Source: Saccharothrix sp. HUAS TT1 (GTDB taxonomy: Bacteria; Actinomycetota; Actinomycetes; Mycobacteriales; Pseudonocardiaceae). From it: DNA of 64,000 nt. A program made the position numbers and the translations under genes. The DNA is taken from assembly GCF_040744945.1 (NCBI RefSeq), contig NZ_CP160453.1, positions 4,216,001 to 4,280,000 of the forward strand, given 5' to 3'. Below the pieces are notes generated by a model. The model had not been told where the DNA came from and made no database searches. It saw only the letters and a list, made by a program, of their open reading frames with translations. This document shows, in pieces, positions 3,493 to 17,689 of the stretch. Positions within the stretch are counted from its first letter, which is position 1. Each line of letters begins with the position of its first letter.

Positions 3493-5046
3493 GTGGCCGA
3501 AACCACTGCGACGACCCTGCTGAACCGGCCGGAGGAAGTGACGCAGGCGCCCAACGACCTGCTCACCGGTGACGGATATCTGGAGAGCATGCGGGACGGC
3601 CGTGAGGTCTACCTCTACGGCGAGCGCGTCACCGACGTGACCAAGCACCCGGCCTTCGCCCAGGCCGCCCGGTCGACCGCGCACCTGTACGACGCGCTGC
3701 ACGACCCGGCCACCGCCGACCTCATGACGACGGTCGACCGCTACACCGGCGCCCGGGTGCACCGCTTCTTCACCCCCGCGCACTCCGCGCAGGACCTGCT
3801 CGACGCCCGCGCCGCCATCGAGCACTGGGCCCGCCTCAGCTACGGGTTCATGAACCGGACCCCCGACTACAAGGCCTCCTTCATGGCGGGCCTCGCGGTC
3901 ACCCACGAGTACTACGAGCCGTTCGGCGACAACGCCCGCGCCTGGTACGAGAGGTACGCCCGCCAGGGCCTGTCGATCAGCCACGCGATCGTCAACCCGC
4001 CGGTCGACCGCAACAAGCCGACGCACGAGGTCGGCGACGTGTTCGTCAAGGTCGTCGAGGAGCGCGACGGCGGCATCGTCGTCGACGGCGCCAAGCTCAT
4101 GGGCACCGCCTCGGCGCTGACCCACGCCGCGTTCGTCGGCCAGATCCACCTGGCGAACCTGGAGAAGGGCAAGGCCGAGGACTACGCGCTGGCGTTCATG
4201 GCCCCGCTCGACACGCCGGGCATGAAGGTCATCTGCCGCCCGTCCTACGAGCAGAAGGCCAACAGCCCGTACGACAACCCGCTGTCGAGCAGGTTCGACG
4301 AGAACGACGCGGTCCTGGTGTTCGACCGGGCGTTCATCCCGTGGGAGAACGTCCTGATCTACCGCGACGTGGAGAAGGTGCACGAGTACTTCCCGCGCTC
4401 GGGCCTGCTCTCGCGCGGGTTCTTCCAGGGCGCGATCCGGATGGCCACCAAGCTGGAGTTCATGGCCGGCCTGATGGACAAGGGCACCAGGCTCAACGGC
4501 ACCCACCAGTTCCGCGGCGTGCAGGCGGGGCTGGGCGAGATGCTGGCGTGGCGGCACGTCACCCACGCCATCACCACCGCGATGGCGATGGACCCGGAGC
4601 CGGGCCCGGCGGGCACCGTGCTGCCGAAGATGTCCTACGCGGCCGGCTACCGCGCGCTCGCGCCGATGTCGTGGGAGCGCACGCACCGCTTCTTCGAGGA
4701 GCACCTGGCGGCGGCGCTGCTGATGACCCCGGCCGGCGCCGAGGACATGAAGAACCCGGAGCTGCGCCCGCTGATCGACCGGTACTACCGGGGCTCGGCG
4801 GGTTCCGCCGACGACCGGGTGAAGCTGTTCAAGCTGGCCTGGGACGCGCTGGGCAGCGAGTTCGGCGGCCGGCACGAGCTCTACGAGCTCAACTACGCGG
4901 GCGGGCCCGACCAGGTCCGGCTGGACACCCTGAACTGGTCGCGCGCGGTGGGCCTGATGGACGACTACGGCGCCCTGGTCGAGCAGTGCATGGACGACTA
5001 CGACGTCGACGGCTGGACCCGGGGTCGCTGGGCCACCGGCAGCTGA
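3493..5046 (+). CDS. HpaB-family FADH2-dependent phenol/aromatic monooxygenase
   Basis: A 517-residue large component of a two-component flavin hydroxylase of the 4-hydroxyphenylacetate 3-monooxygenase family, which also includes Sam5-type 4-coumarate and tyrosine 3-hydroxylases. It would place an OH ortho to a phenolic OH using FADH2 and O2. The family landmarks are present: GYLESMRDGREVYLYGERV near the N-terminus and the phenol-gripping triad of the HpaB fold, here Arg122, Tyr126 (NRTPDY) and His164 (SHAIVNPP). The start is taken as GTG 3493 because GGAGG at 3481 sits seven bases before it and the length then matches the family. An in-frame ATG at 3397 would add a poor 32-residue extension. 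The HpaC-like reductase gene follows 75 bp downstream. The substrate is not determinable from sequence. Confidence 0.92.
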   Translation: MAETTATTLLNRPEEVTQAPNDLLTGDGYLESMRDGREVYLYGERVTDVTKHPAFAQAARSTAHLYDALHDPATADLMTTVDRYTGARVHRFFTPAHSAQDLLDARAAIEHWARLSYGFMNRTPDYKASFMAGLAVTHEYYEPFGDNARAWYERYARQGLSISHAIVNPPVDRNKPTHEVGDVFVKVVEERDGGIVVDGAKLMGTASALTHAAFVGQIHLANLEKGKAEDYALAFMAPLDTPGMKVICRPSYEQKANSPYDNPLSSRFDENDAVLVFDRAFIPWENVLIYRDVEKVHEYFPRSGLLSRGFFQGAIRMATKLEFMAGLMDKGTRLNGTHQFRGVQAGLGEMLAWRHVTHAITTAMAMDPEPGPAGTVLPKMSYAAGYRALAPMSWERTHRFFEEHLAAALLMTPAGAEDMKNPELRPLIDRYYRGSAGSADDRVKLFKLAWDALGSEFGGRHELYELNYAGGPDQVRLDTLNWSRAVGLMDDYGALVEQCMDDYDVDGWTRGRWATGS

Positions 5047-5121
5047 TCCCACGGAGCAGGTCGGAGGCGGGCGCCGCGCGCCTGGGGCACGGGACACCCG
5101 CCGCACGGGGAAGGGATTGCG

Positions 5122-5616
5122 ATGAGCACCACAAACCTGCGCGACGTCATGCGCAACTACGCCACCGGCGTGTGCGTGGCGACGACCTACTCCGACGGGC
5201 CGGACGGTCGGCTCGACGACGCGATCACCATCAACTCGCTCACCTCGGTGTCGATGGACCCGCCACTGGTGTCGATGTGCCTGCGGCCCGACTCCGGGTT
5301 CCTGGCCAACGTCCGCGCCGTCGGCTTCTGGGCCCTGTCGATCCTGGACGCGGGCACCGAGGACATCGCCCGCGCCCTGGCCAAGGACCGGGAGACCCGC
5401 AGCGTGGCCATGCGCACCCTGTCGACGCGACGCGGCGACCTCACCGGTGCGCTGGTCCTGGACTCGCCGAGCTGGCTGGAGTGCAAGTTGGCGGACACGG
5501 TGACCGTGGGCGACCACGTGATGCTGATCGGCGACGTGATCGGGCTCGGCACGAAGGAGCGCCGACCGCCGCTGATCTTCCTCCAGGGCGGGTTCCACAC
5601 GCTCAGCGGAGTGTGA
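5122..5616 (+). CDS. Flavin reductase (HpaC-like small component)
   Basis: A 164-residue flavin reductase-like protein with the FMN-binding split barrel. Seen are the N-terminal MRNYATGVCVATT, the TINSLTSVSMDPPLVSMCL segment (family pattern T.NS..SVS..PPL), and a C-terminal GGFHTL. It would use NAD(P)H to make the reduced flavin that diffuses to the HpaB-type oxygenase encoded 75 bp upstream on the same strand. Length is normal for the family (about 160-180 aa). The ATG follows a GGGAAGGG purine run. The pairing with HpaB strongly supports a working two-component monooxygenase. Confidence 0.93.
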   Translation: MSTTNLRDVMRNYATGVCVATTYSDGPDGRLDDAITINSLTSVSMDPPLVSMCLRPDSGFLANVRAVGFWALSILDAGTEDIARALAKDRETRSVAMRTLSTRRGDLTGALVLDSPSWLECKLADTVTVGDHVMLIGDVIGLGTKERRPPLIFLQGGFHTLSGV

Positions 5617-6119
5617 CGGGCCGCCGCTCACATCCGGGTGGGCGGCGATGGGACGACAACACCGGCGTGCCGGACGTGAGAGGGGAGAGGCGTGGAGGTG
5701 AACCCGCGGGAAGCGACCTGCGCGGTCGTCCGGCGCTCGGCTCTCCGCGGTTCCCGCACGCCGCGAACCCGGGGCGGCCGCTCTTGGCGGCCTCGTGCAC
5801 TACCTGTCGGTGAGGCGCGCGTCTTGAGGGCGGTCGGAGCCCTCGACCTCTGCGCCCGCGACACCCCCGACCAGATCAGCGCAGCGCACCGGACCCGGAG
5901 GTCCCCCGCTCCCGCCCAGGCCCTGCCGGGCGGGGTGGGGGAGCCGGGCGACCGGTGCGCGACCCCGCTCGACGGCACGGGGCGCCTGACCGCCGCCAGG
6001 CGCCCCACCACCCTGCCGCCCGAGCGGGTTCGCGACCGCGGGGAGCGCCCCCGACGCTCCCCGCGGTCGCCCAAGGATGACGGCTGCGTCCCGCAGCCGG
6101 ACAACAGAGAGGCAACACG
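5617..6119 (+). promoter_or_regulatory. 503-bp leader/intergenic region with two strong hairpins
   Basis: No convincing gene lies here. The 3' part contains a perfect 16-bp stem (6032-6047 with 6055-6070, 7-nt loop). Eleven bases later comes a second hairpin, an 8-bp stem CGGCTGCG/CGCAGCCG at 6081-6099. Neither is followed by a T-run. The second ends 21 bases before the next ATG. The first could terminate the hpaBC transcript. Their closeness to the downstream gene also allows a leader-control role. Confidence 0.5.
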
Positions 6120-6758
6120 ATGAAGATCGCGCTGTTCGGTGCGAGCGGCCACATCGGCTCGGCCATCGCCGACGAGCTGCTCTCCCGTGGCCACGAGGTC
6201 ACCGCCGTCACGCGCTCCGGTTCGGGCGACGCCCGTCCCGGGCTGACCGTGAAGTCCGGCGACATCACCGACCCGGAGACGGTGATCGCGCTGGTGGAGG
6301 GCCACGACGCCGTCGCCTCCGCGGTCGGCCCCAAGGTCGGTGTCGAGAACGACGAGGAGATCCTGCTCGGCGCCGCGCGCAGCCTGGTGGAGGCGCTGCC
6401 CAAGACCGACGTGCGCCGCGTGGTGGTGCTCGGCGGCGCGGGCAGCCTGAAGACCCCGTCCGGCGAGCGGGTGGTGGACAACCCCCACTTCCCCGCCATG
6501 TGGAAGGCCAACGCGCTCGCGCAGATCGCGGTGCTCGACCTGTTCCGCACGGTCGACGACCTCGACTGGACGTTCATCTCGCCCGCGGCCCACATCGAAC
6601 CGGGCGAGCGCACCGGCGAGTACCGGGTCGGCGGCGACGACCTGCTCGTGGACGAGAACGGGGACAGCAACATCTCGATCCCCGACTACGCCGTCGCCTT
6701 CGTCGACGAGCTGGAGAAGGGCAATGCGATCAAGCGCCGCATCGGCGTTGCCTACTGA
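6120..6758 (+). CDS. NAD(P)-binding NmrA/YwnB-like oxidoreductase
   Basis: A 212-residue atypical short-chain dehydrogenase. The N-terminus KIALFGASGHIGSAIADELLSRGHEV is the GxxGxxG Rossmann motif of NAD(P)H-binding (NmrA/SDR a5) proteins. VLGGAGSLKTPSGERVVD and the TFISPAAHIEPGERTGEYR segment match the YwnB-like branch. There is no obvious Tyr-x-x-x-Lys pair, so it may be a redox sensor or a quinone/ketone reductase. It is preceded by the double-hairpin leader and followed 49 bp later by an MFS exporter, suggesting a joint transcript in the aromatic cluster. The specific role is unknown. Confidence 0.82.
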   Translation: MKIALFGASGHIGSAIADELLSRGHEVTAVTRSGSGDARPGLTVKSGDITDPETVIALVEGHDAVASAVGPKVGVENDEEILLGAARSLVEALPKTDVRRVVVLGGAGSLKTPSGERVVDNPHFPAMWKANALAQIAVLDLFRTVDDLDWTFISPAAHIEPGERTGEYRVGGDDLLVDENGDSNISIPDYAVAFVDELEKGNAIKRRIGVAY

Positions 6759-6807
6759 CGTCGGCGAATCGCCTGGGACGGACACGAGCAGAAAGGAACC
6801 CGCAGCG

Positions 6808-8064
6808 ATGTCTACAGCGGGTACGACAAAACCGGCCCGGTTGTCGGGCAACGTGGGCCTGATCATCATCCTGGGCGCGCTCACGGCCCTCGGTCCGCTG
6901 TCCAACGACGCCTACCTGCCGAGCTGGCCGCAGCTGGCAGCGGACCTCTCGGCCACCCCGTCCGCGGTGCAGCTGAGCCTCACCGCCTGCCTGGTCGGAC
7001 TCGGCGTCGGGCAGATGATCGCCGGACCGCTGTCGGACCGGTTCGGGCGCAGGGGACCACTGCTCGTCGGTCTTCTCCTGTACACGGTGACGTCGGTGCT
7101 GTGCGCCTTCGCGCCCTCGATCTGGCTGTTGATCGTGCTGCGCCTGCTCCAGGGCTTCGGCGGCGCGACCGGCATCGTGATCGCCGCCGCGATCGTCCGC
7201 GACAGGCACGTGGGCGCCGCCGCGGCGAAGTACTTCTCGATGCTGCTGCTCGTCACCGGGCTCGCCCCGGTCCTGGCGCCGGTGATCGGCGGCCAGCTGC
7301 TGCGGTTCACCACCTGGCCGGGGATCTTCATCGCCCTGGCCGCCGCGGGTGGGCTGATGGTCGTCGCGGTGGCGCTCGGGCTGCGCGAGACGCTGCCACC
7401 GGAACGGCGGGACGCGGGCGGGCTCAAGTCCATCCTGCCGACCTTCGGCCGGCTGCTGTCCGACCGGGTGTTCGTCGGCTACGGCCTGGCGTGCGGGTTC
7501 GGCTTCGGCGCGATGTTCGCCTACATCGCGGGCTCCCCGTTCGTGCTCCAGGAGATCCACGGGCTCTCCCCCCAGGCGTACAGCGCCGTGTTCGCGGTGA
7601 ACGCCTTCGGCCTGGTCATCGCGGCCCAGGTCAGCGGTCGGATCGTGCACCGCGTCAACCCCCGTGCGCTGCTGGGCGCCGGGGTCGCCGCTTCCGCGGC
7701 GGGCGGTCTGGTCGTGCTCGCCGCGGTGCTCGCCGACCTCGGTCTGGTGGCGCTGCTGATCGGGCTGTTCGTGGTGGTCGCGAGCGTCGGGTTGATCATG
7801 CCGAACTCGATGGCGCTCGCGCTGAACGACCACGGCGCGGTCGCGGGCTCGGCCGCCGCGCTGATCGGGCTCGTGCAGCACCTGCTCGGGGCGGTCGCCG
7901 CCCCGTTCGCCGGTGTCGCGGGCGCGGTCAACGCCCTGCCGATGGCGGTGACGATCACCGTGCTCGGCGTCGCCGCCCTGCTGTCGTTCGCCGTCCTGGC
8001 GCGCAAGCGCAAGGACGTCCCGGTCGACAGCGCGGCCCCGGTCGCCCTGGCCGGACAGGACTGA
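6808..8064 (+). CDS. MFS drug-resistance transporter, Bcr/CflA type
   Basis: A 418-residue membrane protein with twelve predicted hydrophobic segments. The motif between helices 2 and 3, GPLSDRFGRRGPLL, is the MFS motif A. The N-terminal ALGPLSNDAYLPSWPQLAADL matches the Bcr/CflA subfamily, which exports bicyclomycin, chloramphenicol and other small molecules with proton antiport. The ATG follows an AAAGGA ribosome site. Its place between biosynthetic genes suggests export of, or self-protection from, the cluster product. A strong hairpin follows the stop. Confidence 0.9.
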   Translation: MSTAGTTKPARLSGNVGLIIILGALTALGPLSNDAYLPSWPQLAADLSATPSAVQLSLTACLVGLGVGQMIAGPLSDRFGRRGPLLVGLLLYTVTSVLCAFAPSIWLLIVLRLLQGFGGATGIVIAAAIVRDRHVGAAAAKYFSMLLLVTGLAPVLAPVIGGQLLRFTTWPGIFIALAAAGGLMVVAVALGLRETLPPERRDAGGLKSILPTFGRLLSDRVFVGYGLACGFGFGAMFAYIAGSPFVLQEIHGLSPQAYSAVFAVNAFGLVIAAQVSGRIVHRVNPRALLGAGVAASAAGGLVVLAAVLADLGLVALLIGLFVVVASVGLIMPNSMALALNDHGAVAGSAAALIGLVQHLLGAVAAPFAGVAGAVNALPMAVTITVLGVAALLSFAVLARKRKDVPVDSAAPVALAGQD

Positions 8065-8068
8065 TCGC

Positions 8069-8104
8069 GTGGCGGCGGGTCCGGTCCACCGGCCCCGCCG
8101 CCAC
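8069..8104 (+). terminator. Hairpin terminator after MFS gene
   Basis: A perfect 11-bp stem (GTGGCGGCGGG with CCCGCCGCCAC) encloses a loop that holds a small CCGG/CCGG stem of its own. It begins five bases after the MFS stop, so it probably ends that transcript, although no T-run follows. Confidence 0.6.
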
Positions 8105-8226
8105 CGCTCGGACCTCGAACCCCCGGCCGGGTCGTCGCCGGTCCCGTCGCGCGGCCGTCACCGACGTGCCGCCGACGTGCGCCGCACCCGTCCACCCGCG
8201 CCGGGCTTCCTACGTGAGGAGTTGTG

Positions 8227-9168
8227 GTGAGCGACGTTCGGCTGGGCACGGTCGCCGTGCTGGGCGCGGGCCTTGTCGGCACGTCGATCGGGTTGGTCCT
8301 GCGCAAGCACGGCATCAGCGTGACGCTCGCGGACCGCGATCCCGAGTCCGTCGCCGCGGCGGTCCGGCGGGGCGCCGGTCGGGCGTCGACGCCCGACGAG
8401 CCGCCGGCGGACCTGGCGGTCCTCGCCGTCCCGCCGGCCGCGGTGCCCGCCGTGCTCCTGCGCGCCCAGGCCGACCGCGTCGCCGAGTGGTACACCGACG
8501 TCGCCGACGTCAAGACCGCGCCCAGCACCGCCGCCCGGCGGCTGGGCTGCGACATGACCAGCTTCGTGCCCGGCCACCCGGTCGGCGGCCGGGAGCACTC
8601 CGGGGCGGCGGTCGCGTCCGGCTCGCTGTTCGGCGGCAAGTCCTGGGTGCTGTGCCCCGAGGAGGAGACCGCCGACGAGGCCGTCCGCGTGGTCCGGGAG
8701 CTGATCGCGCTGTGCGAGGCGATCCCGGTGGTGATGTCGGCCGCCGAGCACGACGACGCGCTCGCCCTCGTCTCGCACACGCCGCACCTGGTGGCCGGCG
8801 CGATGGCGGCGGCGCTGTTCGGCGCCGAGCACCGGACCCTGCGCCTGGGCGGCGCGGGGGTGTGGGACGTGACGCGGGTCGCCGAGGGCGATCCGGCGCT
8901 GTGGACGGAGATCCTGACCCAGAACGCGCGCGGCGTGGCCACCGTGCTCTCCGAGATCGCCGCCAACCTGACCGACGTGGCCGCCGCGCTGCAGCTGGCG
9001 GGCGAGGGCGACGGGTCGTTCATCGGCGACGTGACCGAGCTGCTGACCCTGGGCGCCGCCGGCCGGCGCGACCTGGTCGAGACGGTGGTGCTGGACCCCG
9101 CGCGCCTGCCCGCCCCGTCAGCGGACCTCCTGCCGCCCGTGAACCCGACGGCGCGGCAGCAGGCTTGA
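8227..9168 (+). CDS. Prephenate (arogenate) dehydrogenase, TyrA family, copy 1
   Basis: A 313-residue TyrA-type enzyme. It would oxidatively decarboxylate prephenate to 4-hydroxyphenylpyruvate, or arogenate to tyrosine. Seen are the NAD(P) motif VLGAGLVGTSIG, the family segment SFVPGHPVGGREHSGA, and LVSHTPHLVAGAM. The HPMAG signature common in the family is HPVGG here, a variant also unlike the second copy at 11994-12845. No ACT regulatory domain is visible, so tyrosine feedback may be absent. GTG 8227 is chosen because GAGGAG lies five bases upstream; GTG 8224 is the alternative. A strong hairpin follows. It forms part of a dedicated aromatic precursor supply with AroH and DAHP synthase. Confidence 0.9.
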   Translation: MSDVRLGTVAVLGAGLVGTSIGLVLRKHGISVTLADRDPESVAAAVRRGAGRASTPDEPPADLAVLAVPPAAVPAVLLRAQADRVAEWYTDVADVKTAPSTAARRLGCDMTSFVPGHPVGGREHSGAAVASGSLFGGKSWVLCPEEETADEAVRVVRELIALCEAIPVVMSAAEHDDALALVSHTPHLVAGAMAAALFGAEHRTLRLGGAGVWDVTRVAEGDPALWTEILTQNARGVATVLSEIAANLTDVAAALQLAGEGDGSFIGDVTELLTLGAAGRRDLVETVVLDPARLPAPSADLLPPVNPTARQQA

Positions 9169-9175
9169 GCCCGCT

Positions 9176-9220
9176 GCGGCCGGGACCGCGCTCGCGAACC
9201 GAGCCCGCGGTCCCGGCCGC
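9176..9220 (+). terminator. Hairpin terminator after TyrA copy 1
   Basis: A perfect 15-bp GC-rich stem pairs 9176-9190 with 9206-9220 around a 15-nt loop. It starts seven bases after the stop codon. No T-tract follows, as is usual in high-GC actinomycetes. Confidence 0.65.
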
Positions 9221-9274
9221 GCCCGCCTTGCCGCCGGGCGGCCGCGCCCGGTGCGTGACGAGTCCTGTTCGGAC

Positions 9275-9292
9275 GGTGAAATTCGGTTCACC
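9275..9292. promoter_or_regulatory. Inverted repeat GGTGAA-6-TTCACC, possible operator
   Basis: A perfect 6-bp inverted repeat with a six-base spacer lies about 170 bp before the secreted-protein gene at 9460. It sits in the region that should hold that gene's promoter. The size and symmetry suit a dimeric repressor, but no regulator can be named. Confidence 0.35.
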
Positions 9293-9459
9293 CGTTCGCT
9301 TTTGGGCCACAACCGTGCGTGTTCAGGTGGTGCCACCGCCCTCGCGGGCGTCTAGCGTTTGCCCATCGGAAAGACCGAGTCCCGCCGCCGAGCCGCTTCG
9401 AGCCGGCTCCCGCGCTCTTCGCCAGTGGCGGTCAACCACACCCACCTAGGAGTCGGTCG

Positions 9460-10488
9460 ATGACTTCTCCAAGAAGACGATTACTGCTGTCCGGCAGCGT
9501 GCTCGGCGTGCTCGCCCTGCTGGCGGTCGCGGCGCCCGCCTACTTCACCGCGGACGACTCCGCGGCGGCTGCCCCGGGGCAGAACCCGGTGACGGTCTGC
9601 GTCGTGGCGCACCGCGACGCGAACTCCGAGCACGGCCGGACCCTGACGGTGTCGCAGCGCGTGGCCGACCTGCTCGTCCGGCAGTCCTCGTCGTACTACG
9701 GCCCGTGCGCGGTGTACGGCGCCGCCCGCCCGCTGGGGCAGGGCACGGTCCGCACGTTCGCCCAGCTGCAGGGCAACCGGCCGACCTCGGTCGGCATCAC
9801 CTTCTCGCCGAAGACCCTGACCGGTCTGCCGTCCGAGATGACCGACGGCCTGCGCTGCTTCGACGTCAACGGCGACGGCGTGCGCCAGGAGATGCTGGAG
9901 TGCGCGGGCGGCCACGAGCGGCCGCTGGAGCTGCCCGCCGCGCTGACCAGGCTGTCCGACGTGCCCTTCAAGTGGGCGCTGGTGAACTGGAACCCGCACG
10001 GGCACGGACCGCCCGGCATCTACGAGCACTCGCACTTCGACTTCCACTTCTACACCCAGCCCAAGGCGGAGCGCGACGCGATCCGGCTCGGCCCGTGCGG
10101 CGTCGTGGTCCACTGCGACGACTTCGCGACCGGCACCGCGCCCGTGCCCGCGCAGTACCTGCCCGCCGGCTACTCCGACAACGCCGCGGTCGAGGCGCTG
10201 ATGGGCAACCACCTGGTGGACATGACCGACGAGGAGTGGAACGGCTCCCCGTTCGTCAAGACGTTCATCTACGGCGCCTACGCCGGGAAGATCACCTTCC
10301 TGGAGCCGATGATCACCAAGGGGTGGTTCGACCGGCTGTCCTCCGGGCAGCAGGCCGGCGGCTGCTTCCCGATCAACCAGCCCGCGGCGTGGCAGGAACC
10401 CGGCTGGTACCCGAAGGTCTACTGCACCGAGTTCCGCCCGAACCGCGACGAGTACGTCGTGACGCTCCAGGACTTCAGCCACAGCTAG
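9460..10488 (+). CDS. Secreted protein of unknown function (DUF5602-like)
   Basis: A 342-residue exported protein with an N-terminal signal peptide or anchor (RRRLLLSGSVLGVLALLAVAA) followed by an Ala/Pro-rich stretch. The mature part has paired cysteines and a striking His/Asp cluster, YEHSHFDFHFYTQ, preceded by NWNPHGHGPPGIY, which looks like a metal site. It resembles, from memory, a secreted bacterial family typed by TTHB210 (DUF5602); this cannot be verified here. TAGGAG lies eight bases before the ATG. It is followed 30 bp later by another secreted protein, and the two probably form a bicistron. No enzymatic function can be assigned. Confidence 0.72.
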   Translation: MTSPRRRLLLSGSVLGVLALLAVAAPAYFTADDSAAAAPGQNPVTVCVVAHRDANSEHGRTLTVSQRVADLLVRQSSSYYGPCAVYGAARPLGQGTVRTFAQLQGNRPTSVGITFSPKTLTGLPSEMTDGLRCFDVNGDGVRQEMLECAGGHERPLELPAALTRLSDVPFKWALVNWNPHGHGPPGIYEHSHFDFHFYTQPKAERDAIRLGPCGVVVHCDDFATGTAPVPAQYLPAGYSDNAAVEALMGNHLVDMTDEEWNGSPFVKTFIYGAYAGKITFLEPMITKGWFDRLSSGQQAGGCFPINQPAAWQEPGWYPKVYCTEFRPNRDEYVVTLQDFSHS

Positions 10489-10518
10489 AGCCGTCGGACA
10501 CCGACGAAGGGACGAGCA

Positions 10519-11016
10519 ATGACCGGAAGACTCGTGGGCGTGCGCGGACTGCGCGGCGCCCTCCGCGCGGGGGCTGTCGTGTTCGCCGCCGCCCTGGCGC
10601 TGCCGCTGATGTCGACCGGCGCGGGCGCGCAGGTCGACGCCCTCGGCGCGCGACTGGTGCAGGGGCGCTGGAACACCACCGTGCTGCCCAACGGCAAGCC
10701 GCCGAGCGAGGTGGTCCTGGTGTTCCGCCGTGACCACCGGATCGAGATGTACGGCCCGATCGGGACCGACGGCGAGCCGGTCTACGTGGGCACCGGGAGC
10801 TGGGTGCGGACGTCGCCGAGGACCTTCAGCTTCGACCTGCAGCACCCGTTGCCCGACGGCAGCGGCGGCGTGATCGGCACCCTCCGCGGCCACCAGGAGG
10901 GCCAGCTCTCCGCCTTCCGGTTCAGCAGCTCGGGCGAGTCGTTCGTGGACAAGCCGGACGGCACCACCGTCGGCCCCAACCCGGTGACGATGACCGGCGT
11001 CCGCGCCCGGCGCTGA
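10519..11016 (+). CDS. Small secreted protein, unknown function
   Basis: A 165-residue protein with a clear Sec signal peptide (hydrophobic stretch AGAVVFAAALALPLMSTGAGAQ, cleavage expected after about residue 39). The mature part is beta-rich, with alternating hydrophobic residues and turns such as LPNGKPPSE and PIGTDGEP, suggesting a small barrel or lipocalin-like fold. No cysteines or catalytic motif are seen. The ATG follows GAAGGGACGAG. It is probably co-transcribed with the secreted protein upstream. I do not recognise the family. Confidence 0.7.
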   Translation: MTGRLVGVRGLRGALRAGAVVFAAALALPLMSTGAGAQVDALGARLVQGRWNTTVLPNGKPPSEVVLVFRRDHRIEMYGPIGTDGEPVYVGTGSWVRTSPRTFSFDLQHPLPDGSGGVIGTLRGHQEGQLSAFRFSSSGESFVDKPDGTTVGPNPVTMTGVRARR

Positions 11017-11041
11017 CCGCGACCGGTCGCGGGTCCCGACC

Positions 11042-11061
11042 GCGCCCGGGTCACCGGGCGC
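11042..11061 (+). terminator. Short hairpin after secreted-protein pair
   Basis: An 8-bp perfect stem, GCGCCCGG with CCGGGCGC around a 4-nt loop, lies 26 bases after the stop. It may terminate the bicistron before the methyltransferase gene. Confidence 0.4.
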
Positions 11062-11185
11062 CGCGCCACCACGACCGCGCCACCGGGAACGGCCCCAGAG
11101 CCAGTGCGGTGGTCCGCCGCAGCCGGACCACCGCACGTCCCCGCGCGGTCGACACCCCAGTCCCGTGAGCAGAATCGAGGTTCCG

Positions 11186-11920
11186 ATGGCGTTCGAGTTC
11201 CCCGGCGAGGTCTACGAGACCATCAGGGCCGGCATGCGCGACCTCCCGGGCGAGACCGACTTCCTGGCCGGGCTGCTGCCCGCCGGCGGCCGGCTGCTCG
11301 ACCTCGGGTCCGGCTCCGGCTCCACGCTGCACGCCCTGGCCGAACAGGGGTTCGAGGGCGTCGGCGTCGAGGTGAGCGGCCAGTTCGTCGACCACGCGAA
11401 GAGCCGGGCGAACGACCGCGAGCGCTACGTCAACGCCTCCTTCCTGGAGTTCGACACCGACGAGACCTTCGACGTGGTGTCCTGCCTGTTCGCCACCCTC
11501 AACATGGTCGACCCGGCGGAGCTGCCCGGACTGCTGGTGAAGGCGCGCCAGTGGCTCAAGCCCGGCGGGCGGCTGGTGCTGGAGGCCGCGCACCTGCTGA
11601 ACTTCGTCGACTCCTTCCAGCCGAGCCAGGTCACCCACCACCCGGCCGCGGACGGCACGGTCGTCACCCGGCTCGCCCGGATCTCGGTCCACCCGCACCG
11701 CGCGACGTGGCGCAACGAGGAGACGCTGCTGGTCGGCGCCTCCGGCGGCCCGGCCACGCTGCACCACAACTTCTTCGACCAGTGGGTGCTCACCGCGCCC
11801 GAGCTGCGCAACCTGCTGGCGGCGGCGGGGTTCCGGGTCGTCGCCGAGCACGGCTCGTTCCGGTCCACCCCGCCGGTCGGCCGCGGCCCGCTGATCCAGG
11901 TCGCCGAGATCGACCGCTGA
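11186..11920 (+). CDS. Class I SAM-dependent methyltransferase
   Basis: A 244-residue methyltransferase. Motif I reads LLDLGSGSGSTL, followed by an acidic end to the second strand (VGVEVSGQFVDHAK). The FDVVSCLFATLNMVDP and LKPGGRLVLEA segments are the usual post-I and motif III-like regions. The ATG at 11186 is preferred because GAGG sits five bases upstream; an in-frame GTG at 11165 lacks a site. It is convergent with the minus-strand TyrA gene and separated from it by a very strong hairpin. In this cluster it could O-methylate a phenol produced by HpaBC, but the acceptor is unknown. Confidence 0.85.
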   Translation: MAFEFPGEVYETIRAGMRDLPGETDFLAGLLPAGGRLLDLGSGSGSTLHALAEQGFEGVGVEVSGQFVDHAKSRANDRERYVNASFLEFDTDETFDVVSCLFATLNMVDPAELPGLLVKARQWLKPGGRLVLEAAHLLNFVDSFQPSQVTHHPAADGTVVTRLARISVHPHRATWRNEETLLVGASGGPATLHHNFFDQWVLTAPELRNLLAAAGFRVVAEHGSFRSTPPVGRGPLIQVAEIDR

Positions 11921-11932
11921 CCCACCCCCCGG

Positions 11933-11982
11933 CACGACGAGAACCGGCCGCCCTCGGTTGAGGGCGGCCGGTTCTCGTCGTG
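11933..11982. terminator. Bidirectional terminator, 23-bp perfect stem
   Basis: A perfect 23-bp inverted repeat (11933-11955 with 11960-11982) around a GGTT loop fills the space between the convergent methyltransferase and TyrA copy 2 genes. It can act on both strands. Confidence 0.85.
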
Positions 11983-11993
11983 CGCGCGGCGGG

Positions 11994-12845
11994 TCAACCG
12001 CGGTCGGTCAGCTCCGCACGTCCCGCGCACCCGCGCGCGAGCAGTTCGGCCACCTCGGGCAGCGGCTCGTCGTCACCGCGGGCGACGGCCGCCAGCGCGG
12101 TGGCCGTGCGGCCCAGGTCCGCCGCCACACCGGCCAGCACCCGTGCGACGTGCTCGGCGTTGTGCCGCAGGATGTCGGTCCACAGCGCGACGTCCCCCGC
12201 CGCGATCCGGGTGGTGTCCCGAACACCGCGCCCCGCGAGCCGCAGCACGTCCGGACCCGCGCCGCGCAGCGCCGCCGCCATCGCGCCGGCCACCACGTGC
12301 GGCGCGTGCGACACCAGCGCCACCGCGCGGTCGTGCTCCACCGCGTCCATCTCCACCTCCCGCGCCCCGCACAGCGCCACCAGCTCGCGCACCACGTCGA
12401 CCGCCCCGGCGCCCACGCCTGGCCGGGGGCACAGCACCCAGGCCGCGCCCCGGAACAGCGCCGCGTCGGCCGCCCCCGGGCCGGACCTCTCGCTGCCCGC
12501 CATCGGGTGGCCGGGCACGAAGTCCACCGCCGCCCCGGCGGCGCGGACCACGGTCGCCTTGGTGCTCGCGACATCGGTGTAGACGTGCGCGAGCCCCCGG
12601 TCCCGCGCGTCGCGCAGGACCGGGGGCACGGCGTCCGGCGGCACCGCCAGCACGGCCAGGTCGGCGCGCGGCGGGCGGTCGCCCACGGGCCGGCCCGCGC
12701 CGCGGCCGACCGCGACGTCGAGCGCGTCGACGTCGCGGTCGGCCAGCAGGACGCGGACCCCGGCGGCGCGGGCGGCCAGCGCGATCGACGTGCCGATCAG
12801 GCCGGTGCCCACCACCACCAGGGTCCGCAGCGCCGGTCGGGTCAC
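11994..12845 (-). CDS. Prephenate (arogenate) dehydrogenase, TyrA family, copy 2
   Basis: A 283-residue TyrA-type dehydrogenase on the opposite strand from copy 1. It shows the NAD(P) motif VVGTGLIGTSIA, the classic FVPGHPMAGSERSG substrate-site segment, and LVSHAPHVVAGAM. The GTG start overlaps the chorismate mutase stop (GTGA), so the two successive enzymes of the tyrosine branch are translationally coupled. Chorismate would go to prephenate and then to 4-hydroxyphenylpyruvate. No ACT domain is present. Having two TyrA copies within 3 kb is unusual and suggests one is specialised. Confidence 0.92.
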   Translation of the reverse strand: MTRPALRTLVVVGTGLIGTSIALAARAAGVRVLLADRDVDALDVAVGRGAGRPVGDRPPRADLAVLAVPPDAVPPVLRDARDRGLAHVYTDVASTKATVVRAAGAAVDFVPGHPMAGSERSGPGAADAALFRGAAWVLCPRPGVGAGAVDVVRELVALCGAREVEMDAVEHDRAVALVSHAPHVVAGAMAAALRGAGPDVLRLAGRGVRDTTRIAAGDVALWTDILRHNAEHVARVLAGVAADLGRTATALAAVARGDDEPLPEVAELLARGCAGRAELTDRG

Positions 12846-13222
12846 CGAGCGCCCGTCCGGACCAGGTCCGGGCGCAACGCCGCCGCGCCGCCCAGGTACA
12901 CGTGCCGGACCGACGTCGCCGCGTCCGGGACGCTGACGTGCGCCAGGGCGCGGACGACCCTGGGCATGCCGCCCGGCACGGCGATCTCGGTGGCGCACAT
13001 CAGCGGCACGCCGTCGAGCGGACCCGTCCGCGCCGCCGTCGCCGGGTAGGCGCTGACCAGGTCCGGCGTGACGGTGAACAGCACGCTGATCACGTCCTCC
13101 GGGTCCAGCGCGTTGTCGGCCAGCATCGCGCTCACGAGCGCCCTGGTGGCGTCGGCGATGAGGTCGGGCTCGTCGGCGTCGACTTGAACCGCACCGCGCA
13201 CCGCGCGGACCGTGCCTGCCAT
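12842..13222 (-). CDS. aroH: Chorismate mutase, AroH class
   Basis: A 126-residue monofunctional AroH-fold chorismate mutase, rearranging chorismate to prephenate. The N-terminal VRAVRGAV carries the arginine of the active site. PEDVISVLFTVTPDL is the family's central strand-helix. CATEIAVPGGMPRVVRALAHV holds the Glu and Arg expected at the trimer interface site. VYLGGAAALRPDL gives the C-terminal Tyr. Length matches the Bacillus subtilis enzyme (about 127 aa). GGAGGAG stands eight bases before the ATG. It lies between the aldolase-fold gene and TyrA copy 2 in one minus-strand operon. Confidence 0.93.
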   Translation of the reverse strand: MAGTVRAVRGAVQVDADEPDLIADATRALVSAMLADNALDPEDVISVLFTVTPDLVSAYPATAARTGPLDGVPLMCATEIAVPGGMPRVVRALAHVSVPDAATSVRHVYLGGAAALRPDLVRTGAR

Positions 13223-13244
13223 CACCTGCTCCTCCCGGTGCGAC

Positions 13245-14051
13245 TCACTCGTCCAGCAGTTCGGGTTGCTCGGCGACGATCTCGTCGTAGAGCAGCTGGA
13301 AGCTGAACCAGCCCAGCTGCCGGTCGCCGAAGCCGTCCTTGGCGGCCACCGCCTGCTCGTGGCTCATCCGCTGGGGCGTCCCGGCGGCGGCGGCCAGCAG
13401 CTGCACCTGCGCGCAGCTGTCGTAGGTGAAGAACCAGTGCACGGCCTCCTCGATGGAGCCGCCGACGGTGATCAGCCCGTGGTGGCGCAGCAGGATCGCC
13501 CGCCGGTCGCCCAGCTTCTCGGCGATGTCCAGGCCCTGCTCGACGGCGATGGACGGCCCGCGGTAGTCGTCGTAGAGGACCTGGTCCTGGTAGAACGCGG
13601 CCGACTCCTGGTCCAGCGGCTCCAGCAGCCTGCCCAGGGCGCCCATCGCCCGCGAGTGCGCGGTGTGCGCGTGCGCGGCGGCCTCGGCGCCGGGGTTGAG
13701 CTCGTGGATCTTCGAGTGGATCACGAACGCGCTCGGGTTGACCTTGTGCACGCCCTCCACGACGACTCCCTCGGAGTCCACGCAGATGAGGTCGCGCACC
13801 CGCACCAGGTTGAAGGAGACCCCGAACGGGTTCACCCAGAACCGGTCGTCGAACTCCGGGTCGCGCACCGAGATGTGCCCCGAGATGCCCTCGCCGAACC
13901 CGTACTTGCCGAACAGCCGCAGGGCGGCGGTCAGGCGCTGCTTGCGGTCGCGCCGCTCCTCTTCCGTCGTCCGGGTTTCCCGGGCCGGCATCGGCAGGCC
14001 GGTGTGGGTGTCGGCGAGGTAGCCGGGCGCCTTCACTTCCATCGTGGTCAC
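13245..14051 (-). CDS. Class II aldolase/adducin-fold protein, possible NovR/CloR-like oxygenase
   Basis: A 268-residue protein of the class II aldolase/adducin family. The metal-binding His cluster AAHAHTAHSR and the later LLRHHGLITVGG are present, and the N-terminal half has GISGHISVRDPEF and NPFGVSFNLVR. The family includes sugar-phosphate aldolases. It also includes the non-haem iron oxygenases NovR/CloR, which convert prenylated 4-hydroxyphenylpyruvate to the 4-hydroxybenzoate. The length and the neighbourhood (AroH and TyrA directly downstream) fit the second type, though this is inference. The GTG start has GAGGAG about nine bases upstream. It sits second in a four-gene minus-strand operon. 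Confidence 0.85.
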   Translation of the reverse strand: MTTMEVKAPGYLADTHTGLPMPARETRTTEEERRDRKQRLTAALRLFGKYGFGEGISGHISVRDPEFDDRFWVNPFGVSFNLVRVRDLICVDSEGVVVEGVHKVNPSAFVIHSKIHELNPGAEAAAHAHTAHSRAMGALGRLLEPLDQESAAFYQDQVLYDDYRGPSIAVEQGLDIAEKLGDRRAILLRHHGLITVGGSIEEAVHWFFTYDSCAQVQLLAAAAGTPQRMSHEQAVAAKDGFGDRQLGWFSFQLLYDEIVAEQPELLDE

Positions 14052-14086
14052 GAGCAGAACTCCTCACATCGTCGGACGGGCGGGGT

Positions 14087-15640
14087 TCAGATCAGCTGGA
14101 GGCTGTCGTCGTCGAAGCGGTCGGCGGGTGTCGGCGTCGAGGTCGCCCAGCGGAGCCGGATCGACTCGACGATGTCGACGGCGCGGTCCACCAGGGACTG
14201 CACGCCGAAGGTGAAGAAGAGGGTGCCCCGGGCCGGGTCGCCCAGCGCGTGCAGCCTGGCGTCAGCCACGCCGTCCGCGACCAGCTCGCTGGTGGAGCGC
14301 AGCACGTGGACGCCGCCACGCGGGTGCCGCTCGGCCAGCTTCGCCTCGACCAGCGACTCCACCAGCGGCTGCGACGAGCCCGCCCGGTGGTTGAGCCGGG
14401 CGTTCACCGCGTTCACCACCACGTCCGCCGACGACTCGACGCCGCCCGCGACGACGGTGAACCCGCCGTGCTCGCCGGGCCGGACCGCCGTGACGCCCCG
14501 GACCAGCTCGACCCGGCCCGCGTCCAGCAGCGAGAGCAGGGTGGCCGCGCTCGCCGGCGGCATCGGGCAGCACAGGCTCATCAGGCTCCGGTCGTGCCGG
14601 GCCAGCAGCCACTGCCGGGCGGACTCGTCGAGCAGCGGCCACACGTCGGGACCGGCGTCGGGCACCGCCTGCTGGAGCACGCGGATCGCGATGCTCGGCG
14701 AGTCCACCTCGGCGAGGTTGCGGCGCAGCCGGTCCACCGGGTCCTCGTGCGCGATGGCGTCGATCTCGGCGCGCACCACGGCCAGGTCCTCGCCGACCGT
14801 CCGCAGCTCGGTCTCCATCAGCGAGACGACGTCGCGCAGGCTCACGGCGCCACCGCTCGCGGCGATCCGGCGGAAGTGCGCCGGGGTGAAGTGCCGCAAC
14901 CGGTGGTGGATCGGCCGCTGCCGGACGCCCGGCAGCGCGCCGCGGCGCGACACCATCCTGATCCGACCCCGGTGGCCGCGCGCGTTGAGCGCCAGCACCA
15001 CGTCGATCGCGGTGAGCCCGGAGCCGATGACGGCGACGTCGGCGTCGTCGGGGACCGCGGTGAGCGCTCGCGCCGTCGGGTAGGGCTCGGCGACGAACCC
15101 GGCGGCGCCGGTCAGCCCGAACACGTCCGCCGGCTGGCCGGCGCCGAAGGACAGCACCGCGTGGTCGACCTCGAACCGGGCGCCCGCCGTGGTCTCCAGC
15201 GCCAGGCGGTGGGCGGTGGGCGTCGCGCGGGTCACCGCGTCCCGCACGATCCGCACCTGCCAGCCCTTGCGCACCAGCGCCGACAGCGCCGACCGCGCGG
15301 ACTGCTCCAGGTAGTCGCCGAACACCGCGCGCGGCACGAACCGCGCGCCGCCGAGCGGGTCGAGGTAGGCGTTCGGCCGCGAGCCGGCCGACGCCCTGGT
15401 GGCGAGCCAGTCGGCCAGGTGCGCCGGGTCGCCGGCGCGCACCGACATGTCCTCCGGCACGGCGTTGACCCGGATGACCTCCAGGTCGGGCTGGTAGGGG
15501 CGGCCGCGCCACAGGTGGCCGGACGGTTCGAAGACGACCACCTCGCCGGTGGGCAGGCGGTCGTCCGAGGCGAGTGCGTCGAGCAGGCAGACCGCGGACG
15601 CGCCGCCACCCACCACAGCTATTGCCGGAATTGTTTTCAT
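14087..15640 (-). CDS. FAD/NAD(P)-binding protein
   Basis: A 517-residue flavoprotein with two Rossmann motifs. AIAVVGGGASAVCLLDAL at the N-terminus binds FAD. VAVIGSGLTAIDVVLAL at about residue 205 is the second dinucleotide site. LSFGAGQPAD and VVVNAVNARLNH complete a layout typical of the FAD-NAD(P)-binding (NAD_binding_9-like) group, whose substrates are mostly unknown. The ATG at 15640 is used because the Rossmann fold begins ten residues later; the upstream GGAG is a little far away. It heads the minus-strand operon with the aldolase, AroH and TyrA genes and is divergent from the DAHP synthase gene. It may oxidise a cluster intermediate. Confidence 0.82.
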   Translation of the reverse strand: MKTIPAIAVVGGGASAVCLLDALASDDRLPTGEVVVFEPSGHLWRGRPYQPDLEVIRVNAVPEDMSVRAGDPAHLADWLATRASAGSRPNAYLDPLGGARFVPRAVFGDYLEQSARSALSALVRKGWQVRIVRDAVTRATPTAHRLALETTAGARFEVDHAVLSFGAGQPADVFGLTGAAGFVAEPYPTARALTAVPDDADVAVIGSGLTAIDVVLALNARGHRGRIRMVSRRGALPGVRQRPIHHRLRHFTPAHFRRIAASGGAVSLRDVVSLMETELRTVGEDLAVVRAEIDAIAHEDPVDRLRRNLAEVDSPSIAIRVLQQAVPDAGPDVWPLLDESARQWLLARHDRSLMSLCCPMPPASAATLLSLLDAGRVELVRGVTAVRPGEHGGFTVVAGGVESSADVVVNAVNARLNHRAGSSQPLVESLVEAKLAERHPRGGVHVLRSTSELVADGVADARLHALGDPARGTLFFTFGVQSLVDRAVDIVESIRLRWATSTPTPADRFDDDSLQLI

Positions 15641-16077
15641 GGCGAACCCGATATTCTCCCGCACAGTGGTCGGGTGCATTCGTGGTTATTCGCGGAAAAG
15701 TTGCGATGTGTCCCGACATGGTAGACAGCGGTTCTCGGCGGCGGCTGACGCTTGCGCGCGACGACGATTGCCAAAAAGCGAACCGCGAGTGCGGTGTGGG
15801 CCGATCGGTCTATTGTTCCGGACCGGCCCACCCGTGCTACGGTGCCGACCGTTTGCCTTCGAACGGGTGCGACGACATTCTTCCGGCGACGTTCGCCCGC
15901 TGCGGTATCCGAGACGCCCGGGGGCCGGTTTCAGGGGGCGGCACCGGGTCGGACGTGCCCGTGTTCGCGAATGCGGCAACGAGCCTGCGCTGGTTCGACA
16001 TACCAGGACACGCGTCCTGGGTAGCGTTCCGCAGCGATTGGATCGTCAATTCAAATGTCGAGCGAGGGGCGGGTGCC
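15641..16077. promoter_or_regulatory. Divergent promoter region between FAD protein and DAHP synthase
   Basis: A 437-bp gap with lower GC than the genes and no believable ORF. It must hold the promoters for both wings of the aromatic cluster. A TGTC-CC-GACA inverted repeat lies at about 15710-15719, and AT-rich patches occur near 15640-15700 and 16040-16055. No operator can be assigned to a named regulator. Confidence 0.5.
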
Positions 16078-17115
16078 GTGGTCATCGTCATGGGGGCGGG
16101 TGCGATCGAGGCTGACTTGCGCGGGGTCGTGGAACGCATCGAGAGCGGAAACTGCCAGGCGTTCGTGAGCCGCGGTGTCAATCGCACCATCATCGGTTTG
16201 GTGGGCGACGTGGGGCAGTTCAGCGATGCCGAGCTGCGCGCGCTGCCGGGGGTGGCGGAGGTCGTCCGCATCTCGTCGAAGTACAAGCTGGTCAGCCGGG
16301 AGCACCACGCGCACCGCTCGACCGTGCGCGTCGGCGGCGTGCCGATCGGCCCCGGGACGGTCACCCTGATCGCCGGACCGTGCGCGGTCGAGACGCTGGA
16401 CCAGACGATGGAGGCGGCGGTGATGGCGCGCGCGGCGGGCGCGACGCTGTTGCGCGGCGGCGCGTACAAGCCGCGCACGTCGCCGTACGCGTTCCAGGGG
16501 CTGGGGCCGCAGGGGCTGCGCATCCTCGCCGAGGTCCGCGAGGCGACCGGGCTGCCGGTGGTGACCGAGGTGGTCAGCCCGGCCGACATCGACATCGTCG
16601 CCGAGCACGTCGACATGGTGCAGATCGGCACCCGGAACATGCAGAACTTCCCGCTGCTGCAAGCCGCCGGCGCGCTGGACAAGCCGGTCATGCTCAAGCG
16701 GGGGATGAGCTCGTCCATCGAGGAGTGGCTGATGGCCGCCGAGTACATCGCGCAGCGCGGCAACCTCGACATCGTGCTGTGCGAGCGCGGTATCCGCACC
16801 TTCGAGACCGCCACCCGCAACACGCTCGACGTCTCGGCCGTGCCGGTCGCGCAGCAGCTCTCGCACCTGCCGGTGATCGTCGACCCGTCGCACTCGGGCG
16901 GCCGGCGCGACCTGGTCCTGCCGCTGACCAAGGCGGCGATCGCGGTCGGCGCCGACGGCGTGATCGTGGACGTGCACCCGTCGCCGGAGACCGCGCTGTG
17001 CGACGGCCCGCAGGCGCTGGTGTCGGCCGACATGGCCGAGCTGGCGGAGGTGGTCGACGGTTTCGCCCGGCTCACCGGTCGCACCGCGGCCGCGGGCGAC
17101 CGCCTGGCGGTCTGA
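16078..17115 (+). CDS. aroF: 3-deoxy-7-phosphoheptulonate (DAHP) synthase, type I-beta
   Basis: A 345-residue enzyme catalysing the first shikimate-pathway step, from phosphoenolpyruvate and erythrose-4-phosphate to DAHP. The first 75 or so residues are the ferredoxin-like regulatory domain of the I-beta class (VVERIESGNCQAFVSRG, TIIGLVGDVGQF). The barrel follows with LIAGPCAVET, LLRGGAYKPRTSPYAFQG, PVMLKRGMSSSIEEW and the metal-binding DPSHSGGRRDLV. GTG 16078 is chosen for GAGGGG eight bases upstream. Primary metabolism in actinomycetes usually relies on type II enzymes, so a type I-beta copy beside AroH and TyrA marks a dedicated precursor supply. The CGNR regulator gene follows after four bases. 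Confidence 0.94.
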   Translation: MVIVMGAGAIEADLRGVVERIESGNCQAFVSRGVNRTIIGLVGDVGQFSDAELRALPGVAEVVRISSKYKLVSREHHAHRSTVRVGGVPIGPGTVTLIAGPCAVETLDQTMEAAVMARAAGATLLRGGAYKPRTSPYAFQGLGPQGLRILAEVREATGLPVVTEVVSPADIDIVAEHVDMVQIGTRNMQNFPLLQAAGALDKPVMLKRGMSSSIEEWLMAAEYIAQRGNLDIVLCERGIRTFETATRNTLDVSAVPVAQQLSHLPVIVDPSHSGGRRDLVLPLTKAAIAVGADGVIVDVHPSPETALCDGPQALVSADMAELAEVVDGFARLTGRTAAAGDRLAV

Positions 17116-17119
17116 ACCG

Positions 17120-17689
17120 GTGCCGCCGACGGACGGCTTCGTGCTCGTGCTGCCCGACGAACCGCTGACCGTGCGGTTGATGAACACGGTGTGGTCCGAG
17201 CGCGGCCGGGTGCACGACGCCCTGTCCGACGTCCGGCGCCTGCGCCGGTGGGTCGAGGTGGTGAGCGCGGGGACGACTGCCGGTGACGGGGACCTGGCCG
17301 CGTTCCGCGAGTTGCGGGACGCGCTGCGGGACGTCGTCCACCACCGGACCGCCACGTCGCCGCTGCCGCCCGAGCGGGTGGCGCGGGCGGTCGAGGTGAT
17401 CAACGGGGCGGTGACCGCGACGACGGTCTGGACGGAACTCGTGCTGACCGAGGAGGGCCCGAGCCGCCGCCCGTGCTGCTCGGGCACCCCGGCGGAGCGA
17501 CTGCTGTCGGGCATCGCGGCCGAGGCCGTCGACCTGCTCGCCGACGGTCGCCTGTCGGCGTGCCGGGCGCCGGGGTGCGTCCACCACTACGTGCGGACCG
17601 GCCGGCGGCAGTGGTGCTCCCGGCAGTGCGGGAACCGGGTGCGCGTCGCCCGCCACTACCGCCGCCAGTCGCCCGCGTCCTGGTCCTGA
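17120..17689 (+). CDS. CGNR zinc-finger / ABATE-domain regulator
   Basis: A 189-residue protein with an N-terminal stress-sensing ABATE-like domain (LVLPDEPLTVRLMNTVW, LREL-type helices). It has a C-terminal zinc finger in which CRAPGCVHHYV and RRQWCSRQCGNRVRVARHY supply four cysteines and the defining CGNR tetrad. Such proteins are common actinobacterial DNA-binding regulators of largely unknown targets. The GTG start lies four bases after the DAHP synthase stop without a clear ribosome site, pointing to translational coupling. It may regulate the aromatic cluster. Confidence 0.88.
   Translation: MPPTDGFVLVLPDEPLTVRLMNTVWSERGRVHDALSDVRRLRRWVEVVSAGTTAGDGDLAAFRELRDALRDVVHHRTATSPLPPERVARAVEVINGAVTATTVWTELVLTEEGPSRRPCCSGTPAERLLSGIAAEAVDLLADGRLSACRAPGCVHHYVRTGRRQWCSRQCGNRVRVARHYRRQSPASWS

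Follow-up and report, generated by a model that had tools for sequence, protein, structure and literature searches.

The 64,000-nucleotide stretch of Saccharothrix sp. HUAS TT1 analyzed here (contig NZ_CP160453.1, positions 4,216,001 to 4,280,000; 72.5% GC; hereafter the window, with positions counted from its first base) holds a dedicated specialized-metabolite cluster and not a locus of primary aromatic metabolism. Our explanation of it is a cluster that would supply its own aromatic precursor, oxygenate it with a flavin adenine dinucleotide (FAD)-dependent enzyme of predicted N-hydroxylase type and a predicted non-heme iron enzyme, and carry a resistance copy of glyceraldehyde-3-phosphate dehydrogenase (GAPDH); taken as a whole, this explanation seems to us evenly poised between holding and failing.

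A preliminary description of this DNA had proposed precursor supply dedicated to a specialized metabolite, and both extra enzyme copies and a conserved neighborhood were found. The genome has three matches to the prephenate dehydrogenase TyrA, two in the cluster and the third at 1.278 Mb, as well as two AroQ-type chorismate mutase matches (PF01817) outside the cluster, class II matches to 3-deoxy-D-arabino-heptulosonate 7-phosphate (DAHP) synthase at 8.345 Mb and 6.748 Mb, and three further DAHP synthase matches of the type I family. Because these copies lie elsewhere, the idea that the cluster enzymes are the sole genomic copies serving primary metabolism is rejected, the comparison for chorismate mutase covering PF01817; the gene neighborhood, moreover, is kept in other families. 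The class II match at G000:C1:6747591-6748721 (L177) falls into two pieces within a single open frame, with a stretch of the profile missing between them, and is perhaps divergent or shortened.

All genes in the preliminary description were confirmed as real by their codon-position GC pattern and by Pfam and NCBIfam searches (Table 1). The extent given there, 3493 to 17689, held for those genes but not for the whole cluster, which extends left of 3493 and past base 1 to a second AraC gene and an adenosine monophosphate (AMP)-ligase gene. The ligase had been called absent, a window-edge effect since its gene lies 1.6 kb beyond the window. Also missing from that list were a short-chain dehydrogenase/reductase (SDR), two predicted secreted proteins (Sec1 and Sec2), and three genes lying before position 3493, which encode a PPOX-type flavoprotein, a type I GAPDH, and an AraC regulator. 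The plus strand encodes, in order, HpaB, HpaC, the SDR, a Bcr/CflA transporter of the major facilitator superfamily (MFS), TyrA1, Sec1, Sec2, and a methyltransferase. The minus-strand genes for the FAD protein, the aldolase-fold protein, AroH, and TyrA2 are separated by 44, 19, and -4 bases and so look like one operon, from which the DAHP synthase and CGNR regulator genes diverge. As had been stated, neither an ammonia-lyase nor a polyketide synthase (PKS) was matched among the scanned cluster genes; the claimed lack of an aminotransferase applies to the window's own cluster, where none was seen, but not to the Streptomyces and Kitasatospora versions (five genomes and one plasmid). From this gene content we infer a small, oxygenated, perhaps methylated aromatic product.

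The FAD protein has no match in the Protein Data Bank (PDB) by single-sequence search. When its AlphaFold2 (AF2) model (mean predicted local distance difference test score [pLDDT], 92.2) was searched with Foldseek, chains of FzmM ranked first (E value 4e-25; query TM-score, 0.73), followed more weakly by ornithine and lysine N-hydroxylases (1.5e-14), and a profile search also placed FzmM first, at 8e-9 over part of the chain. The catalytic Asn62 of FzmM is kept as an invariant Asn59, whereas the aspartate-site Arg13 corresponds to Ser15 and is Ser or Ala across 15 aligned rows. Aspartate is thus disfavored as substrate, since the residue that binds it is replaced. Modeled fold and residues together lead us to infer an N-hydroxylase-type enzyme acting on a substrate other than aspartate, for which tyrosine is a candidate.

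For the aldolase-fold protein (AF2 mean pLDDT, 90.1), Foldseek returned NovR first (E value 7e-26; TM-score, 0.91; 39% identity), then 4xxf and TqaM, with pyruvic oxime dioxygenase (POD) lower; NovR was also best by phmmer. His124, His126, and His188 align with the metal ligands His128, His130, and His192 of NovR and His92, His94, and His155 of FucA, and are invariant in a 29-row alignment. The FucA residue Glu73 is replaced by Ala105 here and by Ala109 in NovR, a position equally invariant in that alignment. The protein is therefore predicted to be a NovR-like non-heme iron oxygenase. According to PMC13111500, CloR and NovR are three-His non-heme iron enzymes that turn a 4-hydroxyphenylpyruvate (4-HPP) derivative into a hydroxybenzoate by two oxidative decarboxylations.

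The pairing of these two genes was examined in two surveys. The first covered 297 genomes of the family, where the FAD protein had a match at an E value of 0.001 in 74, many of them weak; 18 of the 30 strongest loci were read in 20-kb stretches, and 15 of the 18 had the aldolase-fold gene. The second took one genome per species and returned 72 FAD loci, of which 52 were kept at an FAD-protein identity of at least 48% and 20 were dropped, nonactinobacterial ones among them. The aldolase-fold gene was present in 44 of these 52 loci, and in 43 it was adjacent on the same strand; given that adjacency, the pairing exceeds chance. The sets overlap (L038 and L056 share one contig of 290,550 bases, as do several others of L040 to L055 and L057 to L104), and counts were not summed. 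With flanks of at most 10 kb and some loci truncated, gene counts in the 44 paired loci are lower bounds. At least 24 have any of the searched aromatic-pathway genes (DAHP synthase, AroH, TyrA, AroC, AroA, or AroB), with DAHP synthase in at least 20, TyrA in at least 19, AroH in at least 17, and AroC in at least 8. An HpaB or HsaA-like hydroxylase occurs in at least 34 (HpaB at 70% identity or more in at least 8) and HpaC in at least 33. The remaining companions are an AMP-ligase (at least 32), an MFS transporter (28), an AraC regulator (26), a berberine bridge enzyme (BBE)-like FAD_binding_4 protein (18), PPOX (11), methyltransferase (9), SDR (8), Sec1 (5), and GAPDH (3), each again at least that often.

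The richest version lies on a plasmid of Streptomyces sp. NBC_00435. Its aromatic supply genes encode class II DAHP synthase, AroH, TyrA, AroC, AroB, AroA, transketolase, and an aminotransferase annotated as HisC; it also encodes two ligases, HpaB, a flavin reductase, the FAD and aldolase-fold proteins, SDR, methyltransferase, and PPOX; and it further carries gamma-butyrolactone regulators, Sec1, MFS, GAPDH, a helix-turn-helix regulator, and a CGNR gene. The aminotransferase is also found, beside PPOX and GAPDH, in the five fetched Streptomyces and Kitasatospora genomes (G300 to G304), and scores 516.8 bits against a cutoff of 374 for the PRK03321 subfamily, which we take to include aromatic aminotransferases. 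That it belongs to the richer clusters argues for tyrosine or 4-HPP as precursor. Among 25 genomes of the genus, HpaB of this type was matched in a single one, that of the window itself, which suggests horizontal gain.

Several loci show the FAD gene in other company. FAD-HpaB pairs lie near catechol 2,3-dioxygenase-like genes in L051 and L095 (both Saccharopolyspora), and near such genes together with semialdehyde dehydrogenase-like genes in L067, L074, and L086; these are perhaps relatives with a ring-cleaving pathway. L051 additionally encodes a second protein with NAD_binding_9 and a thiamine diphosphate (ThDP) enzyme, while L067 carries, with its semialdehyde dehydrogenase-like gene, a pyridoxal phosphate (PLP) aminotransferase-like gene and AhcY. 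In L181 (plasmid pLW3 of Rhodococcus sp. LW-XY12), L046/L065, and L097, the FAD-aldolase-fold pair occurs with PPOX and at least two acyl-CoA dehydrogenase-like genes, and L181 and L046 also carry phosphoenolpyruvate (PEP)-utilizing enzymes; we read these as another type of pathway using the same two oxidative enzymes. In Frankia relatives of the FAD gene (L062, 8919-9776, from Frankia sp. QA3; also L063 and L081), a sirtuin-like gene beside or near it replaces the aldolase-fold gene.

The genome holds two type I GAPDH-family matches (PF02800), the housekeeping copy at 3.756 Mb and one in the cluster, where the GAPDH start codon and the stop codon of the AraC regulator overlap by 4 bases. The cluster copy is catalytically intact by sequence, retaining the SNASCTTN motif and Cys154. 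Twenty genomes were picked, non-randomly, among cluster holders, and 15 GAPDH regions were fetched, 8 with cluster genes beside GAPDH and 7 without. A linked GAPDH, adjoining the PPOX gene or two genes off, was present in 9 of the 20 genomes, the window's included (G000 and G297 to G304). A midpoint-rooted tree built from 30 of the 50 matches placed every one of the nine cluster GAPDHs outside the clade of 20 ordinary copies (support, 96/94). Ten cluster copies, the plasmid's included, differ without overlap from 20 ordinary ones (one outlier dropped), for instance in Lys117 to Arg and Ile149 to Val, the latter five residues before Cys154, which is kept in all copies. HpaB at 74% identity or more was found in 9 of the 20 genomes, and GAPDH is linked in 8 of these 9 against 1 of the 11 without it (Fisher's exact test, P = 0.0009, or 0.005 after collapsing near-copies; descriptive values, relatedness not being otherwise corrected for). 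In pentalenolactone biosynthesis, self-resistance comes from gap1, a gene of the cluster, the insensitive isozyme differing at a few noncatalytic positions (PMC11727764). The resemblance to that pattern is why we rate self-resistance as the likeliest role of the cluster GAPDH, a candidate resistance isozyme, with precursor supply as its main rival; the cluster product may accordingly inhibit GAPDH.

Put together, the proposed pathway would begin with DAHP synthase and lead through chorismate, AroH, and TyrA to 4-HPP or tyrosine, transamination being left to the host or, in Streptomyces, to the cluster-borne enzyme. The HpaB/HpaC phenol hydroxylase would form a catechol, and the flavoprotein of FzmM type, which is most likely to hydroxylate an amine nitrogen, would lead to an oxime or nitroso stage. 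The NovR-type oxygenase could then decarboxylate oxidatively, or cleave, the alpha-keto or alpha-oximino acid, and the methyltransferase and AMP-ligase would complete the scaffold. The Bcr/CflA pump would be the exporter, and the second GAPDH, whose gene is coupled to that of a cluster regulator, most likely shields the producer from a product that would inhibit this enzyme. Of this, the analysis bears out gene content, conservation, folds, key residues, and the linkage and phylogeny of the GAPDH, while substrates, step order, product, and target are proposed. More tentatively, and with more chance of failing than of holding, we propose an undescribed family of clusters, widespread in actinobacteria, that makes N-oxygenated catechols from self-made tyrosine: an enzyme with the FzmM fold would N-hydroxylate tyrosine, an iron oxygenase of NovR/POD type would act on the resulting alpha-oximino acid, and the subtype with HpaB would yield a GAPDH inhibitor in producers with a resistant GAPDH.

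A number of observations weigh against these proposals. The likeness of the FAD protein to FzmM is remote, the profile match being partial, and by sequence score NovR stands hardly above the uncharacterized 4xxf (186.8 versus 181.9 bits), so that orthology with NovR is not claimed. Among the eight FAD loci without an aldolase-fold gene are FAD-HpaB pairs (L067, L074, and L086), and therefore the two oxygenases need not act sequentially. As to GAPDH, the cluster copies are not monophyletic (two label changes, with the window and Glycomyces copies branching apart); two unlinked Microbispora GAPDHs are closer to the window copy (77% identity) than the linked ones are (70 to 74%); and in G304 the FAD gene and the GAPDH block, which keeps the gene order of G302 and G303, lie on separate contigs. 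No linked GAPDH was found in 10 cluster genomes without this type of HpaB and in 1 with it, a metagenome-assembled genome whose contig ends there; of these 11, five had their GAPDH region fetched and the rest were judged from 10-kb flanks.

A route free of nitrogen chemistry would have the NovR-like enzyme convert 4-HPP through 4-hydroxymandelate to 4-hydroxybenzoate, from which HpaBC would make protocatechuate and the ligase and methyltransferase a vanilloyl-type unit, leaving the FAD protein as some other oxidoreductase. We see this as a minority possibility to be taken seriously: NovR, the best structural match, does such chemistry on prenylated 4-HPP (PMC13111500), and in the cluster of this genome two TyrA copies but no aminotransferase were seen. 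The aminotransferase in the five fetched genomes and the plasmid nevertheless points to tyrosine, and an amino-acid N-hydroxylase tops the fold matches of the FAD protein by a wide margin over the next enzyme. Much less probable is a catabolic or primary aromatic locus with biosynthesis genes adjacent by chance. The FeaR-like AraC regulator, the HpaB families, mostly catabolic by name, and the FAD-HpaB pairs near catechol 2,3-dioxygenase-like genes (L051, L067, and L086) speak for it; but the primary copies are located elsewhere in the genome, and the pair is accompanied by the anabolic DAHP synthase-AroH-TyrA set again on a plasmid and in other families, together with a ligase, an exporter, and gamma-butyrolactone regulators.

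That the GAPDH serves supply and not resistance, by raising flux to PEP, the substrate of DAHP synthase, or to 1,3-bisphosphoglycerate, is in our estimate rather unlikely. The Streptomyces versions do carry transketolase, AroA, AroB, and AroC as well, and a GAPDH in the foxicin cluster has been proposed to supply a glyceryl unit (PMC5318452). Yet no FkbH-type or PKS gene was matched among the scanned cluster genes, and GAPDH is missing from some clusters whose aromatic supply genes are complete (L066 and L070). Nor is GAPDH known as a limiting step for PEP, which also counts against a supply role. The arrangement resembles instead that of pentalenolactone clusters with gap1 (PMC11727764). In some relatives (L092 and L169) GAPDH adjoins an MFS gene, as an ArsJ-type arsenate resistance pair would, but such a pair is very improbable here: the cluster GAPDH scores 391.2 bits against the ArsJ-associated cutoff of 450 while exceeding the general type I cutoff, and the MFS protein is above the Bcr/CflA cutoff. 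An ArsJ-type GAPDH was rejected on that model score.

The cluster can be set beside known systems. The NovR/CloR branch to 3-dimethylallyl-4-hydroxybenzoate in novobiocin and clorobiocin biosynthesis likewise has a protein of class II aldolase fold that keeps the three His residues and lacks the aldolase Glu. NovF and CloF, TyrA-type enzymes that supply 4-HPP there, are a further likeness, to the TyrA of this cluster. In contrast to that branch, no prenyltransferase family (CloQ type) was matched among the scanned cluster genes, identity is only about 39%, and the present cluster adds the FzmM-like flavoprotein, HpaBC, AroH, DAHP synthase, and GAPDH. The aspartate N-hydroxylases FzmM and CreE (fosfazinomycin and cremeomycin) share the overall fold, two dinucleotide domains, and catalytic Asn62, but Arg13 is Ser or Ala here and no nitrosuccinate-lyase-like gene was matched among the scanned genes. 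POD, described as an aldolase-fold Fe(II) dioxygenase of an alpha-oximino acid, was found by Foldseek but ranks under NovR (6e-18 versus 7e-26) with 25 to 28% identity. BagF/FevY of the bagremycin and ferroverdin clusters, whose product is a tyrosine-derived aromatic (PMC6692506), as is proposed here, is the nearest curated model for the DAHP synthase; the type I-beta domain layout matches, but NF041229 gives 565.1 bits against a cutoff of 700, and no ammonia-lyase or amino-hydroxybenzoate synthase was matched among the scanned genes. The bagremycin/ferroverdin assignment was rejected on the subthreshold score and these unmatched partner genes. Pentalenolactone clusters share an extra, catalytically intact GAPDH with few noncatalytic differences from the ordinary enzyme; the present cluster, however, is not of terpene type, and GAPDH resistance is here a candidate role only. 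The foxicin cluster is not the same, its gene table (PMC5318452) describing a PKS/nonribosomal peptide synthetase cluster without these genes. The claim that the cluster matches no known pathway stands so far as the open-license PMC literature goes, which has no description of the gene combination; subscription journals could hold one.

Should the GAPDH prove to be a resistance copy, the target of a compound could be read from the genes before its isolation, and this would open a direct way to new glycolysis inhibitors that belong to neither the pentalenolactone nor the heptelidic acid class. The FAD/aldolase-fold pair, present in many genomes of Streptomyces, Kitasatospora, Micromonospora, Microbispora, Glycomyces, and Pseudonocardiaceae and on plasmids, would oxidize tyrosine-type precursors in a new two-enzyme step. 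Its built-in aromatic pathway makes the cluster convenient as a cassette for heterologous expression.

Table 1. Genes of the cluster, with positions relative to the window
Feature	Position	Strand	Evidence and remarks
AMP-ligase	-3284..-1602		About 1.6 kb outside the window; Pfam AMP-binding, 3.9e-49; 58.6% identity to ligase family f5 of related clusters
Second AraC regulator	-1549..-560		Outside left edge (stretch L128)
PPOX/PNPOx-type flavoprotein	1..736	-	C-terminal end about 97 bases outside the window; likely ATG at 736
Second type I GAPDH	808..1809	-	Gp_dh_N/C; TIGR01534, 436.8 bits (cutoff, 367.2)
AraC-family regulator, FeaR-like	1806..3050	-	Start uncertain, 2930-3050; HTH_18, AraC_binding_2; best NCBIfam FeaR, under cutoff
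HpaB-type oxygenase of two-component phenol 3-monooxygenase	3493..5046	+	HpaB_N/HpaB
HpaC-like flavin reductase	5122..5616	+	Flavin_Reduct; every NCBIfam equivalog under cutoff
NAD(P)H-binding SDR	6120..6758	+	NAD_binding_10; adjoins MFS gene in relatives too
Bcr/CflA drug-efflux MFS transporter	~6808..8064	+	TIGR00710, 318.5 bits (cutoff, 200.9)
Prephenate dehydrogenase TyrA1	8224..9168	+	PDH_N/PDH_C; NF005112 above cutoff
Sec1, predicted secreted protein	~9460..10488	+	No Pfam family above cutoff
Sec2, small predicted secreted protein	10519..11016	+	No family matched
S-adenosylmethionine (SAM)-dependent methyltransferase	11165..11920	+	Methyltransf_23/25; homologues in relatives
Prephenate dehydrogenase TyrA2	11994..12845	-	PDH_N/PDH_C; 4-base overlap with AroH
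AroH-type chorismate mutase	12842..13225	-	PF07736, 1.4e-39; TIGR01796 above cutoff
Class II aldolase-fold protein, predicted NovR-like non-heme iron oxygenase	13245..14042	-	Aldolase_II
FAD/NAD(P) flavoprotein, two dinucleotide domains, FzmM-like fold, predicted N-hydroxylase	14087..15640	-	NAD_binding_9
Type I-beta DAHP synthase, BagF/FevY-like	~16078/16090..17115	+	DAHP_synth_1 + FXD
CGNR/ABATE regulator	17120..17689	+	ABATE, zf-CGNR

Among the other cluster proteins, HpaB has TftD (4oo2) and E. coli HpaB as its nearest solved chains, and the PPOX-type flavoprotein matches TIGR04025 at 2e-15, under the cutoff, with its family (f12) recurring in related clusters. Sec1 has an invariant HFDFHFY motif, several invariant cysteines, and a TTHB210-like match that is subthreshold only; it accompanies HpaBC and the FAD gene, with homologues of 50 to 54% identity lying between the HpaC and FAD genes in relatives. 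In Micromonospora endophytica (L092), the aldolase-fold gene has a Sec2 homologue as its neighbor. Farther away, the start of the frame L128:1-1392 (about -17.0 to -15.6 kb in window coordinates), which is not linked to the cluster here, resembles by eye a lysine/ornithine N-monooxygenase, possibly a siderophore gene, and three long open frames of 785, 1016, and 1004 codons with high GC content at third codon positions follow in a row at 53576-62146.

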